Shown piece by piece: positions 43,411 to 48,799 of a stretch of 62,123 nt of DNA (the stretch's first letter is position 1; the number at the start of each line of letters is the position of its first letter). The stretch is from an uncultured Flavobacteriales bacterium. Lineage in GTDB: Bacteria; Bacteroidota; Bacteroidia; Flavobacteriales_D; Sanyastnellaceae. The DNA lies in contig CAJQLF010000024.1 in the NCBI GenBank assembly GCA_905479115.1, positions 1-62,123 on the forward strand, given 5' to 3'. The position numbers and the translations under genes were made by a program. The notes beneath the pieces are model-generated. The model made no database searches and was not told the origin of the DNA. It worked only from the letters and a program-made list of their open reading frames with translations.

Positions 43411-44535
43411 TTAAGAATCGAGTTCAGCCATTTTTTTCTTCGAAGACTCAAACGAATCGTCCAATTCAATGGCTTTGGCATAACATGCACGGGCACTTTC
43501 GTTATCCCCTTTTTTCGCATAGAAATCACCCATGCTATCGTGAGCATTCGCTACATCAGGAGCCAAGCGTACATAACGCTTGAAGCAAATTTCCGCACTT
43601 TCCATGTCACCTTCGCGCATATTCAAATACCCTAAGAGGTTATTCGGCGCCCCCAGAGCTCCCCAGCGCTTCGCCGTTTGCTCCAAAATAAGCCGTGCTG
43701 CAGCAGCATCCACAGCCATCAAATGCCAAGCATACTGTATTTGAGTTAGCGGTGAATCAGATGCCAGAGCGTAGGCCTTTTGTGCATTCTCTAACTGATC
43801 CCCAAAAACATCTGAGTGCGACATGAAGTAATACTTTGTAGCAGAATCTTGGCTCTTCTCCACAGCCTCTGCAACATTCGCCTCCCACGCCTCTCCGTCT
43901 CCTGCAAACCAGGCTCGCCACAAAGATCCAACGTGTGCTAAGGCCATGGAAGGATCCATAGCTATGAGTGAATCCGAAACCTCACCAGCCGCAGATCCAT
44001 CGCCTTGAAGCGCCATCCACGCCATAGAATTACAAAGAGCTACGGCCCCTTCCACATCAGAATTGTTGGGGATGTAATTCTTAGCCAACTGTCCATGATC
44101 TTGATGAAACCAACGATCCCATCGAAGCCGATCACCATCTCGGACCACTGTACCATGAAACGATCGCTGTCCTACGGCACCCAGCGTATGAAAGTACATC
44201 ACTCCCATGACACTGGCAGCAGAACCATACAGCTGTACATCCATGACGTCCGCCTTCACCGAATCTTCAAAAAACCAAGCTCCGTCAACGTTTTCTAAGT
44301 TGGCATTTTTCGGCTCATCCTGATTTGTTGTGAAGTATTTGGTTTCAGATGACAACCCGGACTTGTAAGGTTCGACAGCTTCATCGAATCCCACCTGAGA
44401 TTCGATGTGATTGACAGCAAATTCCCTTACTTCCTGCTCGCTCAATGGAGTTGCGGAGTCCCCCGCACAACCGATGAGTGCCACAGCAAAAAGAACTCCA
44501 CTCAAGTACCACCCTGTTTTCATTCGAATTTTCAT
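43411..44535 (-). CDS. Tetratricopeptide-repeat lipoprotein
   Basis: About 374 residues from the ATG at 44535; the open frame starts at 44583, and an ATG at 44523 is an alternative. The signal GVLFAVALIGCAGD gives a lipid Cys. The N-terminal half (VREFAVNHIESQVGFDEAVE, FHTLGAVGQRSFHGTVVRDG) resembles a nuclear-transport-factor-2-like fold of the type found in secreted Bacteroidota proteins. The C-terminal part holds TPRs (LGYLNMREGDMESAEICFKR, AHDSMGDFYAKKGDNESARA). It lies 66 bp downstream of rplT and shares that strand, so read-through from the thrS operon is possible. Function unknown. Confidence 0.75.
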   Translation of the reverse strand: MKIRMKTGWYLSGVLFAVALIGCAGDSATPLSEQEVREFAVNHIESQVGFDEAVEPYKSGLSSETKYFTTNQDEPKNANLENVDGAWFFEDSVKADVMDVQLYGSAASVMGVMYFHTLGAVGQRSFHGTVVRDGDRLRWDRWFHQDHGQLAKNYIPNNSDVEGAVALCNSMAWMALQGDGSAAGEVSDSLIAMDPSMALAHVGSLWRAWFAGDGEAWEANVAEAVEKSQDSATKYYFMSHSDVFGDQLENAQKAYALASDSPLTQIQYAWHLMAVDAAAARLILEQTAKRWGALGAPNNLLGYLNMREGDMESAEICFKRYVRLAPDVANAHDSMGDFYAKKGDNESARACYAKAIELDDSFESSKKKMAELDS

Positions 44536-44601
44536 TTTTTGACGTGTTAATTTAATCACGCAATTATACGTGATTTGAGTCACAAATAACAGCCTGTGAA
44601 A

Positions 44602-44946
44602 TCACTTCACCTGATCAACCACAGCCTTAAAAGCCTCTGGGTGATTCATAGCCAAATCGGCTAGGACCTTTCTATTTAATTCGATTCCTTTCTTGGTGCA
44701 CTTTCCCATGAACTCGCTGTACGACATTCCATGCTGACGGGCACCCGCATTGATTCGTTGAATCCACAACGTGCGGAATTGACGCTTGCGTTGCTTCCGT
44801 CCTGAATAAGCATATAACAGTCCTTTTTCAACGGCGTTCTTTGCGACGGTCCAAACATTCTTCCGGGCACCGTAGTACCCTTTGGCCATCTTGAGGATTT
44901 TTTTTCGTCGAGTCCTCGATGCGACGGAATTGGTTGCTCTTGGCAT
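44602..44946 (-). CDS. rplT: 50S ribosomal protein L20
   Basis: 114 residues, normal length. The family N-terminus [20 protein letters not shown] and the blocks [40 protein letters not shown] and [18 protein letters not shown] are all present. L20 is an early assembly protein of the large subunit and a known autoregulator in some bacteria. It is the last gene of thrS-infC-rpmI-rplT, separated from rpmI by an unusually structured 101-bp gap. Confidence 0.97.
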
Positions 44947-44973
44947 TTTAAATTGTTTTTTTGGTAGACGGCG

Positions 44974-45027
44974 CTGGGTTAATCCAGGCTTCTGGGCCGG
45001 TTACCGGGTTCAACATGACCGGGTTCA
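44974..45027 (-). promoter_or_regulatory. Structured rpmI-rplT intergenic element (candidate L20 control site)
   Basis: This part of the 101-bp gap contains two direct copies of ACCGGGTTCA (45003-45012 and 45018-45027, 15-bp period), the near-perfect palindrome CCGGTTACCGG (44997-45007), and a small hairpin CTGG-GTTAAT-CCAG (44974-44987). L20 binding to an mRNA that imitates its rRNA site is known in E. coli and in Firmicutes; whether this element does the same is inference. Confidence 0.4.
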
Positions 45028-45047
45028 GTGGTAGACTTGCGGAGTGC

Positions 45048-45242
45048 TTATGCACAAAGTTGGCGCTTGATGCTTGGCACGTCAGCCTTGTCGACTGTCG
45101 TGGTGTGCGTCAAATTGCGCTTCTGCTTCGTGCCCTTCTTCGTCAAGATGTGACTCTTGAAGGCATGCTTCCGCTTGATCTTTCCACTCCCCGTAAACTT
45201 GAAACGCTTCTTCGCGCTTCCTTTGGTTTTCATCTTCGGCAT
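45048..45242 (-). CDS. rpmI: 50S ribosomal protein L35
   Basis: 64 residues, normal length. The highly basic sequence [20 protein letters not shown] followed by [20 protein letters not shown] is the standard L35 pattern. It starts 20 bp after infC. With infC and rplT it is one of the most conserved bacterial operons. Confidence 0.96.
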
Positions 45243-45262
45243 GGCCTTAGATTTTTAATTGA

Positions 45263-45817
45263 TTATTTCTTCGTCGGATTGAATAAGACGGTCATTCGCT
45301 TCCCCTCGAGCTTTGGCAGCTGTTCCACTGTTCCAAATTCTTCGAGTTCCTGCGCAAACTTTAGAAGTAAAATCTCTCCACGCTCCTTGAAGACAATGGT
45401 TCGACCTCGAAAGAAAACATACGCCTTCAACTTGGAGCCTTCTTGCAGAAATTTCTTCGCGTGCTTCAATTTGAATTGAAAATCGTGGTCATCGGTGTTC
45501 GGACCAAACCGAATTTCCTTCACAACCACTTTTTGCTGCTTCGCTTTTATTTCCTTCTGCTTCTTCTTTTGGTCGTACAAGAACTTCTTGTATTCAATGA
45601 CACGGCAAACAGGTGGGTCAGCATTGGGCGAAATTTCGACCAAATCTAAACCCAACTCGCGTGCCAATTGGATCGCATCAGTGGTTCGCATGACGGCAGG
45701 TTCAACATTGTCCCCTACCACACGTACCTCTGCCACTTCAATTTTTTCATTGATTCGGTGAAGATCTTCTCTCCTGACGCGGCCCCGATAAGGGGTCCTT
45801 TTTCTTCTAATGGCTAT
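45263..45817 (-). CDS. infC: Translation initiation factor IF-3, apparent AUA start
   Basis: 184 residues if read from the AUA codon at 45817. A GTG at 45736 would remove essential sequence: the in-frame codons before it read [20 protein letters not shown] then [19 protein letters not shown], the usual Bacteroidota IF-3 N-terminus. No ATG, GTG or TTG occurs in that extension, so initiation must use AUA (45817, giving M-A-I-R-R) or the AUU at 45811. The rest is standard: [58 protein letters not shown]-3 rejects non-canonical start codons, so such a start would allow feedback control. It lies 26 bp after thrS. Confidence 0.85.
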
Positions 45818-45842
45818 AACGCTCGGGTTTTAAATGATACAT
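45807..45842 (-). CDS. Possible 11-codon leader ORF overlapping the infC start
   Basis: ATG at 45842, stop TAG at 45807-45809, encoding [11 protein letters not shown] in a different frame from infC. It starts one base after the thrS stop, preceded by AAGGAG 4 bp away, the best Shine-Dalgarno-like site in this region. Its stop lies 6 bases past the infC AUA, so a terminating ribosome would be next to that start. It may be chance; no conservation data. Confidence 0.25.
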
Positions 45843-45843
45843 C

Positions 45844-47781
45844 TCACTCCTTTAGCATCGCTGCGATTTCCGAACGGATGTGTTCGGCAAAGGCTTCGAC
45901 GCTCATACCTCCCAAGTCCCCTTCTCCCTGCCTTCGCACAGAGACGGTTCCTTCTTTGGCCTCATTTTCTCCCAGTATGAGCATGTAAGGCACCTTTTCC
46001 AATTCAGCATCGCGAATCTTCTTGCCCACCTTCTCAGACCGGTCGTCAACGAGGGCGCGAATATCGTGATTTTCAAGGACTTTTGAAACCCTTTCTGCAT
46101 ATTCGTTGAAACGGTCCGATATCGGCAGGATTTTCACTTGTTCTGGCGTGAGCCACAAGGGGAACTTCCCTGCACAATGCTCGATTAAAATGGCCACAAA
46201 TCGTTCCATCGATCCAAATGGAGCTCGGTGGATCATTACAGGACGGTGTTTGGCGTTGTCTGCTCCAACATACTCCAGCTCAAAACGCTCCGGCAAATTG
46301 TAATCGATTTGAACCGTACCCAACTGCCATTTCCGTCCAATTGCGTCGCGTACCATGAAATCAAGTTTCGGTCCGTAGAAGGCAGCTTCGCCGAGCTCTA
46401 CCACGGTTTTCAAGCCCTTTTCATCGGCCACTTCTTGGATGGCCTTTTCGGCATTGTTCCAATTTTCATCCGCACCAATGTACTTATCTGGGTTCTCCGG
46501 ATCGCGCAAGCTCACCTGAACTATGAAGTCCTCAAACTTCAGCGTCCGGAAGATGTACAAGACCAAATCAATCACCTGGCTCACCTCCTTCTTCACCTGG
46601 TCGACCGTGCAAAAAATGTGCGCGTCGTCCTGGGTGAAACCGCGCACGCGGGTCAGTCCATGCAATTCCCCTGATTGCTCATAGCGATAAACGGTGCCAA
46701 ATTCCGCAAAACGCACCGGCAAGTCACGATAACTGCGCGGACGTGCCTTGAATATCTCACAATGGTGAGGACAATTCATCGGCTTGAGCAAGTACTCTTC
46801 ACCTTCTGCTGGGGTGCTGATGGGCTGAAAACTATCTTCACCGTACTTGGCATAGTGGCCACTCGTGATGTACAATTCCTTGTTGCCTATGTGCGGGGTA
46901 ATCACAGGCTCGTAACCGGCTTTTCGCTGCGCATTCTTCAGAAAAGCTTCCAATCGCATCCGAAGATCTGCGCCTTTGGGCAACCAAAGTGGCAGCCCTT
47001 GACCGACTTTTTCAGAGAAATGAAACAAGTCCATCTCCTTGCCCAGCTTACGATGATCTCGTGCCTTTGCTTGAACCAACAATTCCAAGTAAGCATTGAG
47101 TTCTTGCTTCTTGGGAAAAGTAATCGCGTAAACACGCGTCAACTGTTTGTTGGAATCATCTCCCTTCCAATATGCACCAGCAATGGCCATAACTTTCACC
47201 GCCTTGACAAACCCCGTGTGCGGCATATGGGGTCCTCTGCACAAATCGGTGAAATTGCCCTGCTTATAAAAAGTAATGGTCCCGTCTTCAAGACCTTCCA
47301 GCAGATCTAACTTGTATTCGTCGTCCTTCTCTTTGAAGTATTGAATCGCAGCTGCCTTGGACATTTCTGACCGGACAAACGGATTCTTTTGTTTGGCCAA
47401 CTCCATCATCTTGGCCTCTATCGCCGGGAAATCCTTGTCGGAAATGGTGTGCTCGCCAAAATCTACGTCGTAATAAAAACCGTTCTCAATCGGTGGACCA
47501 ACCCAGAACTTGACCCCGGGGTACATTGCTTCGAGTGCTTCGGCCAAAAGATGGGCAGAACTATGCCACATCGTTCGCTTGCCCTCGTCGTCGTTCCACG
47601 TCAGCAACTTCAAAGCAGCGTCCTCATCAATAGGTCGTTGGGGGTCCCATACCTCACCATTGATTTCGGCTGCCAAAACATTTCGAGCAAGCCCCTCGCT
47701 AATGCCCATCGCCACGTCGAGCGCAGTGGTCCCTTTTTCAACTTGTCGCTGAGATCCGTCTGGTAAGGTGATGTTGATCAT
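45844..47781 (-). CDS. thrS: Threonyl-tRNA synthetase
   Basis: 645 residues, full length. Domains in order: TGS ([20 protein letters not shown]), editing domain ([20 protein letters not shown] with HSSAH zinc/editing histidines; [19 protein letters not shown]), catalytic class II core (motif 2 [21 protein letters not shown]; the zinc Cys in [34 protein letters not shown]) and anticodon-binding domain ([20 protein letters not shown]). It heads thrS-infC-rpmI-rplT and has a perfect -7 box 26 bp upstream of its ATG. Confidence 0.97.
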
Positions 47782-47807
47782 GGTGCTTTCGCTCTAAATT
47801 TCGTGTG

Positions 47808-47815
47808 CAAAGATA
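47808..47815 (-). promoter_or_regulatory. Bacteroidota -7 box TATCTTTG for the thrS operon
   Basis: Exact TAnnTTTG match on the minus strand, 26 bp before the ATG at 47781. The leader is too short for a T-box or tRNA-like operator, so E. coli-type ThrRS feedback is unlikely. Confidence 0.65.
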
Positions 47816-47861
47816 CGACCTTGATCGCAGCGGAAAGGCAAGATAAGCGGACTTTCGAACG

Positions 47862-48380
47862 TCAAGACGTTGGTTTGAAACGCACATCATCCCAAGCCTT
47901 CACGTGCCAATGCACCATCGCCTTTGCGACCTCTTTTCCCTCTCGATCTTTGAGAATGGATTCCATCTGAAAGCGCGCAGCCCCGTCGGTGGCTTCTTCC
48001 ATCATCGTCGAAATTTCAGCAGCCAAAGTCGCAGGGATCTCAGCGTGGGCCGTACAATCCCCCTTGGCAGGTCGCCGCACATAATTCACTTCCAATCTAT
48101 TCATAATCAATCGATAAGAAGACATATCGAACCGCGAAAGGACGGCCATTCCGGAGCAAAATTCACACGCTGTCGCTATGGCGCAAGCATGCATTCCCTT
48201 GAGGTGGTTTTGATTGGCCCTTCGCGAAGGCAGCATGACCTGGACAGCTCCCGCGTCAAATGATCGGATCCGAATACCGTGCGGGGCATTGAACGGAAGA
48301 ATTCGTCTAAAAATCGCATTGAGCCAAAAGAATTGACCTCGTTTTGCCCGCTCCAAGGCCCAATTGAATGCTCGTTGCAT
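47862..48380 (-). CDS. DUF4442 domain protein, hot-dog thioesterase-like
   Basis: 172 residues from the ATG at 48380, which overlaps the upstream stop (TGATG); a GTG one codon earlier is possible. Signatures are FRRILPFNAPHGIRIRSFDA, VQVMLPSRRANQNHLKGMHA and CAIATACEFCSGMAVLSRF, typical of DUF4442 proteins in the hot-dog fold superfamily that handle acyl-CoA. No substrate is indicated. It is the second gene of a two-gene unit with the MazG-like gene. Confidence 0.85.
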   Translation of the reverse strand: MQRAFNWALERAKRGQFFWLNAIFRRILPFNAPHGIRIRSFDAGAVQVMLPSRRANQNHLKGMHACAIATACEFCSGMAVLSRFDMSSYRLIMNRLEVNYVRRPAKGDCTAHAEIPATLAAEISTMMEEATDGAARFQMESILKDREGKEVAKAMVHWHVKAWDDVRFKPTS

Positions 48381-48799
48381 CACTCCACTATATCCCCGGT
48401 GAGCACGGCAGCGATATTTGGCCTGAAATAATCAGGGCCTTTCATGACTTTTCCGTCTTCGCGGTAAATGGGTTGGCCGTCAGCGCCAAGTTTGGACATG
48501 TTGCTCGATTGAATTTCCATGAAGACCTCTTCGATAACATGTTGCATACCATGGCTCAAAATCGTTCCGCACAAGATATACAATTGATCCCCCAGCGCAT
48601 CGGCAATTTCAACTGCATCGCCTGCCAATGCCGCTTCGAGGTATTCTTCGTTTTCCTCTGCCATCAGCCGATGCCGCAAGCGCACTGTGTTTTCGTGCAA
48701 TTGGCCTTGAGGAGACTCCGCGTTGGCAATGCCAAATGAATCGTGGAATTCTCTGACGCAATCAATCAAGGTGGTGAAGTCGTGTTTTTTTTTGTTCAT
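48380..48799 (-). CDS. MazG-like NTP pyrophosphohydrolase family protein
   Basis: 139 residues. The all-alpha NTP-PPase pattern is visible: RLRHRLMAEENEEYLEAALA (E-x2-E-E-type metal site) and AGDAVEIADALGDQLYILCG (E-x3-D), with the C-terminal EDGKVMKGPDYFRPNIAAVL that marks the phosphoribosyl-ATP-pyrophosphohydrolase-like subgroup found in Bacteroidota. It probably hydrolyses nucleotide triphosphates as house-cleaning. It is divergent from the moxR gene, with about 80 bp between starts. Confidence 0.85.
   Translation of the reverse strand: MNKKKHDFTTLIDCVREFHDSFGIANAESPQGQLHENTVRLRHRLMAEENEEYLEAALAGDAVEIADALGDQLYILCGTILSHGMQHVIEEVFMEIQSSNMSKLGADGQPIYREDGKVMKGPDYFRPNIAAVLTGDIVE

Follow-up and report, generated by a model that had tools for sequence, protein, structure and literature searches.

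The window, by which we mean the whole 62,123-nucleotide stretch of contig CAJQLF010000024.1 that was analysed, carries the genes thrS, infC, rpmI and rplT on its minus strand, in an order identical to that of E. coli K-12. These genes are located as follows.

45844 to 47781, minus strand: thrS, the upstream gene, ending in the stop codon TGA at 45846-45844
45263 to 45817, minus strand: infC coding sequence (IF-3), from a putative AUA start to a TAA stop
45048 to 45242, minus strand: rpmI (L35), used as an AUG control gene
44602 to 44946, minus strand: rplT (L20), used as an AUG control gene

We take the upstream gene to be thrS, judging by its translation and by the order of the genes in E. 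coli; likewise, the two downstream genes are presumably rpmI and rplT, to judge by their translations. The infC product matches TIGR00168 as an equivalog (E = 3.4e-56) over positions 2-170 of 170 and PF05198 (E = 7.1e-28), and it aligns to PDB 5lmn across residues 21-182 of 183, so that it is a complete IF3 with both the N and C domains. The 2.27 Mb genome holds a single match to IF3_N, which is the infC of the window and begins at 45754. A search of positions 44000-48500 against Rfam found no L20-type or other known RNA leader up to an E-value of 1, and the predicted RNA fold of 45777-45857 has a z-score of -0.40, with 63 of 200 shuffled sequences being equally stable.

An in-frame TAA at 45832-45830 precedes the infC frame, which is open from 45829 and begins N-P-S-V-I(ATA 45817-45815)-A-I(ATT 45811-45809)-R-R-K. 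As the initial annotation had stated, with coordinates that proved right, the IF-3 frame runs upstream of a GTG at 45736 and this upstream part contains no ATG, GTG or TTG. Three codons of the frame therefore come into consideration as the start.

45815 to 45817, minus strand: AUA, the probable initiation codon, separated from the thrS stop by 26 nt
45809 to 45811, minus strand: AUU, codon 3, an internal Ile codon that varies in relatives and is very probably not the start
45734 to 45736, minus strand: GTG, almost certainly an internal Val codon and not the start

We compared this region among 279 infC loci drawn from the genus, the family, 80 named loci, and samples of the order, class and phylum. 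The window's own locus is present twice in this set (L001, L002), alongside 20 other species of the genus, which is known from draft genomes, those with named records being metagenome-assembled genomes (MAGs); 21 of the 22 genus genomes searched, the window's own included, have an infC match. Removal of 22 loci whose start region was identical to that of another locus left 257. The alignment of infC starts, which had been proposed as a check on the AUA, bears it out: ATA-GCN opens the frame in all 21 distinct genus loci, and none of them has an ATG, GTG or TTG ahead of the conserved core. Of the 257 Bacteroidota loci, 170 lack a canonical start in the stretch that runs from the in-frame stop to this core, while 46 were labelled AUG, 14 were UUG/GUG-like and 9 were undecided. 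As a control, we considered the two downstream genes at those order-level loci whose match begins within the first four residues; L35 begins with ATG in 123/124 and L20 in 125/125. These controls, together with the counts for infC, indicate that the missing canonical start is specific to infC, old, and beyond what chance would produce. The one exceptional L35 locus has AGA at the start position.

Coding constraint in the genus begins at codon 2 after the AUA. Codons 2-18 have a site diversity of 0.114, 0.053 and 0.380 at their first, second and third positions, the low-low-high pattern typical of a protein, and this pattern gives way to 0.302, 0.306 and 0.396 at positions -12 to -1. Of the codon pairs that differ by a single change, 1167 are synonymous and 155 nonsynonymous within the extension, against 46 and 218, respectively, upstream of it. 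Codon 1 is invariant in the genus, including its wobble base, and codon 2 reads GCN, the wobble base of which varies freely. Across 70 reduced order-level loci, a set selected to have AUN-GCN, 63 have ATA and 7 have ATC as codon 1, and 22 have a codon 3 outside AUA, AUC and AUU (AAG, AAA, CAG, TTA, CGT and others). Given this constraint boundary, the variability of codon 3, and the register of an A-tract described below, we take AUA 45817, rather than AUU 45811 or GTG 45736, as the probable start, in agreement with the initial annotation.

That annotation had also offered AUU 45811 as an alternative, from which the product would begin MRRK. Some relatives are indeed opened by ATG-AGA-AGA at about the same place, and one family member (L030) has ATG at codon 3, but the GCN codon 2 with its free wobble base, the 22/70 order-level loci without an AUN at codon 3, and an A-tract that would sit 6 nt too far upstream make initiation at the AUU very improbable. 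Initiation at GTG 45736, the first canonical start codon of the frame, would yield a shorter IF3. It is scarcely credible: the codon is GTG in only 10/21 genus and 13/187 order-level loci, the extension upstream of it is under coding constraint, and the truncation would cut into IF3_N, which matches from 45754. The start region of L030 reads GCT ATA GCA ATG CGC; it has the codon-3 ATG, yet it keeps ATA-GCA at codon 1. The ATA-GCA start is also present in cultured flavobacteria, Dokdonia and Leeuwenhoekiella among them.

Two features lie immediately upstream of the AUA.

45828 to 45831, minus strand: A-tract AAAA at -14 to -11 of the AUA, in a register shared with L35 and L20
45818 to 45820, minus strand: GTT at -3 to -1, a purine-pyrimidine-pyrimidine (R-Y-Y) context conserved by base class

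Counted from the AUA, the 4-nt window richest in A is -14 to -11, both in the genus (88% A, n = 21) and in the order set (82%, n = 70), and the same window is the richest before the AUG control genes (78% for L35, n = 61; 94% for L20, n = 56). Both -13 and -12 are A in 21/21 genus loci and in 58/63 order-level loci without a Shine-Dalgarno (SD) sequence, and the complete AAAA is present in the window and in 11/21 genus loci. Adenines at -14 to -11 have been reported for Bacteroidota initiation regions; in Flavobacterium johnsoniae such adenines are stimulatory for translation, and those at -13 and -12 matter in reporters (PMC6847099). The A-tract rule is not universal, since infC loci with AUG are exceptions: 27 reduced loci of this kind have their A-rich window at -10 to -7 (65%), and both A-13 and A-12 occur in 1/27. 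Nearer the start, the window has A at -6 and G, not A, at -3. A change of A-3 to G led to a loss of about 70% in one F. johnsoniae reporter, where folding was possibly involved according to the authors, and of about 10% in an E. coli one (PMC6847099).

The R-Y-Y context was examined in 81 AUN-GCN loci, a set reduced by IF3 identity. It has a purine at -3 in 79 loci, a pyrimidine at -2 in 80, and a pyrimidine at -1 in 78. On a tree of these loci, position -2 underwent at least 22 base changes and 1 change of purine/pyrimidine class, and position -5 underwent 37 base changes and 22 class changes. Among the 70 order-level loci, -3 is G in 84% and A in 14%, -4 is A in 81%, and -5 is T in 23%. A purine at -3 is also usual before L35 (90%) and L20 (96%); pyrimidines at -2/-1 are found at 54%/53% before L35 and 64%/78% before L20. 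Pairing of the R-Y-Y bases, either in a mini-hairpin or with the initiator tRNA, was considered and found to be unsupported: C is the commonest base at -1, and +4 and +5, being invariant in the loci picked, offer no covariation.

We scored an SD sequence wherever at least 5 bases matched the consensus, a threshold at which counts in mock windows mark single calls as noisy. By this measure, all 20 genus loci tested lack an SD before the infC AUA. More widely, an SD was called at 21/143 AUN-GCN loci (2 of 145 having been dropped for want of 75 nt upstream), against 10 and 4 of 143 in mock windows, at 22/43 AUN loci of another type, for which any AUN codon in the extension was accepted, and at 0/46 AUG infC loci. 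Within the order set, both A-13 and A-12 are present in 0/7 SD-bearing loci, a count obtained by subtraction, as if the A-tract and the SD replaced each other. A search of the genome for the tail of 16S rRNA matched a place whose flanks are unlike 16S rRNA, and the genome's own anti-SD was not seen.

In several Flavobacteriales families, infC starts of the AUC, AUU or AUA type are preceded, at a distance of about 3-8 nt, by GGAGG-type sequences, often AAGGAGG (SD-like loci L126, L129, L131, L136-L138, L142, L144, L148, L187, L196, L200, L202, L203 and L238). A published survey limits SD-dependent control in Flavobacteriales to rpsU (PMC9976891). The repeated occurrence of AAGGAGG or GGAGG before AUN infC starts suggests that infC should join rpsU as an SD-using gene in this order. 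Automatic annotation is known to misplace infC starts in Streptomyces (PMC5472188). Similar misplacement may occur elsewhere, hiding the AUN codon and, in some relatives, the SD that precedes it, and this may be the reason that the SD sequences of infC went unnoticed. The probable ATG of rpsU in the window's own genome (L282) has no SD within 20 nt, unlike that of many published Flavobacteriales.

The initial annotation had also drawn attention to a short leader ORF that overlaps the infC start, and had proposed that infC translation could be coupled to termination on this leader. The ORF and the sequence before it exist as described.

45807 to 45842, minus strand: 11-codon ORF spanning the infC start, from ATG 45842 to TAG 45809-45807, the stop beginning 6 bases past the AUA; judged accidental
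45847 to 45852, minus strand: AAGGAG, formed by the final two sense codons of thrS, 4 nt before the leader ATG; SD-like probably by coincidence

We compared the frequency of such ORFs with that expected from a single-base shuffle of the 60 upstream bases. An ORF that begins with ATG and runs past the infC start is found in 8/20 genus loci (6.9 expected), 9/43 family loci (12.1 expected) and 12/114 order loci (29.6 expected); with ATG, GTG and TTG all allowed as starts, the counts are 16/20 in the genus (12.6 expected) and 34/114 in the order (50.6 expected). That the order falls short of expectation agrees with published work in which AUG is avoided close to start sites in this phylum (PMC6847099). 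Leader translation from the AAGGAG, with infC coupled to leader termination, would draw support from the stop just past the AUA and from the fact that all 8 genus ORFs share this TAG. The common TAG, however, arises because the infC codons ATT AGA contain it, and the ORFs fall into two forms that differ from one another in start and peptide. Moreover, the leader frame of the 8 loci contains 16 synonymous and 21 nonsynonymous single changes, with no clear protein-like constraint. The AAGGAG is private to the window, being absent from the 20 other genus sequences compared (one of which, L020, covers only 31 nt), and of the four positions from -14 to -11 before the leader ATG, a single one is A. 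In addition, the anti-SD is reported to be hidden in Bacteroidia ribosomes (PMC9976891). By these comparisons, the leader ORF occurs at about chance level and appears to have no conserved part in infC expression, which makes coupling through it improbable.

In six of the eight loci, each from a different species (L004, L006-L009 and L011), the leader ATG overlaps the thrS stop as ATGA. Overlaps of this type are known from coupled genes elsewhere, so infC coupling is still conceivable within this subclade and may occur there. A +1 frameshift that fuses the leader ORF to the infC frame would use the facts that the two frames are one base apart and that the TAG lies just past the AUA. We give it almost no credence, as 12/20 genus loci lack an ATG leader ORF and no protein-like constraint is seen upstream of codon 1. 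A conserved upstream ORF ending at a UAG within the AUA-GCN was also considered, and was dropped by reasoning, as its own frame can read TAG at -5 to -3. Of the proposals in the initial annotation, the AUA start and its likeness to E. coli infC are supported, and the AUU alternative and the leader coupling are not.

Comparison among relatives shows where infC starts, that this start is conserved, in which register the A-tract lies and that an SD is lacking; we further infer that the A-tract acts on infC and that feedback by IF3 is the best reading of the window's infC. Initiation at AUA 45817, placement by the A-tract in place of an SD, and IF3 feedback together form the best explanation of the locus, to which we assign a probability of roughly 0.8. 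Translation would begin at the AUA and give a product fMet-AIRRKR.... SD pairing is little used by Bacteroidota ribosomes, and the infC site has no SD; the AAAA 11-14 nt upstream would position the AUA as it would the AUG of genes in the same operon. AUA belongs to the class of codons that IF3 rejects. When IF3 is plentiful, its own mRNA would therefore be initiated less often, and when it is scarce, more often, in a feedback loop like that of E. coli. A different explanation is that most of the ribosomes on infC come from thrS, re-initiating 26 nt past its end, with the AUA as a second-choice site. Only a short gap follows thrS, both in the window and among the genus sequences compared, and the gene order is the same in E. 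coli, but the presence of an A-tract and an R-Y-Y context suggests that the site is recognised in its own right, and we regard re-initiation as unlikely.

Placement of the AUA by the A-tract, with IF3 feedback, can be compared with systems described elsewhere. IF3 discriminates against non-standard start codons, and in E. coli the AUU of infC is the means by which it limits its own synthesis. The annotated MG1655 record confirms that AUU, which bears out the comparison drawn in the initial annotation. The window shares with E. coli the thrS-infC-rpmI-rplT order, an AUN start and a complete IF3; it differs in having no SD but an A-tract at -14 to -11, whereas E. coli has GGAGG 8 nt before the AUU. 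Measured against what would be expected of a non-AUG infC under IF3 autoregulation, the window has a conserved AUN start with no usable canonical start and a full IF3, and it lacks an SD; we treat the missing SD as a variant feature and not as what defines the feedback. Staphylococcus aureus infC also has AUA, where initiation was detected by retapamulin profiling and autoregulation was proposed by the authors, but an extended SD is predicted for non-canonical sites there (PMC13009471) and none is present at the window's site. Streptomyces infC likewise has an AUN start, AUC, with IF3 feedback described (PMC5472188), though the codon and the phylum are different, and B. subtilis infC starts with AUU (PMC1805508). 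The A-rich, Kozak-like regions of F. johnsoniae resemble the window in the A-tract at -14 to -11 and the A at -6, and differ from it at -3, which is G in the window and not A; the main text of that report contains no occurrence of infC, AUA, AUU or non-AUG (PMC6847099). Finally, in Flavobacteriales rpsU (bS21) a translation component controls initiation on its own mRNA, as we infer for infC, but extended SD pairing acts there (PMC9976891) and the infC of the window has no SD.

Homologues with AUG at this site, which the initial annotation had held would count against the AUA, do occur in other lineages (the 46/257 loci given above, including two members of the window's family, L227 and L228) and are found in 0/21 genus loci. 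On a tree of 141 IF3 cores, built without loci from the phylum's other classes and with 129 rows labelled AUN or AUG and 12 labelled neither, the start switched between the AUN and AUG classes at least 5 times. Given this repeated change of class, the IF3 feedback loop is dispensable in some lineages. We would give roughly even odds to a broader reading, in which Bacteroidota infC has an SD-independent element for initiating at a non-AUG codon: the A-tract at -14 to -11 places the AUA, and a conserved A-R-Y-Y context adjoining it tunes how strongly IF3 rejects it. On this reading some lineages would have kept AUN while exchanging the A-tract for an SD, and the codon, rather than the way in which it is found, would therefore be the conserved sensor.

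Non-AUG infC starts are already known (AUU in E. coli, AUC in Streptomyces, AUA in S. aureus), and it is the absence of an SD that differs here. A literature search by title and abstract, with most subscription journals outside its scope, returned no paper on infC starts in Bacteroidota and no non-AUG infC start described without an SD. Gvozdjak and Samanta (2020, arXiv) are said to treat genes that prefer non-AUG starts, and may cover infC broadly. Bacteroidota infC starts were not found in passages of PMC8266586, PMC10783764, PMC8710568 and PMC9845219. A conserved infC that combines AUA with the lack of an SD offers a natural test case for how Bacteroidota ribosomes choose a start codon when SD pairing is absent; it would isolate the contributions of the A-tract and of the context at -4 to -1, and it suggests an IF3-sensitive reporter for this phylum.

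Two further observations concern individual loci of the collection. Three loci whose records are titled Euryarchaeota archaeon (L054), Actinomyces viscosus (L077) and Candidatus Kuenenia (L080) carry a Flavobacteriales-like infC at 71-79% identity, and their contigs perhaps belong to mislabelled or contaminated MAGs. At G070:C3:15431-15972, the infC match falls into two overlapping pieces with 3 in-frame stops, which perhaps reflects a frameshift or an assembly error.
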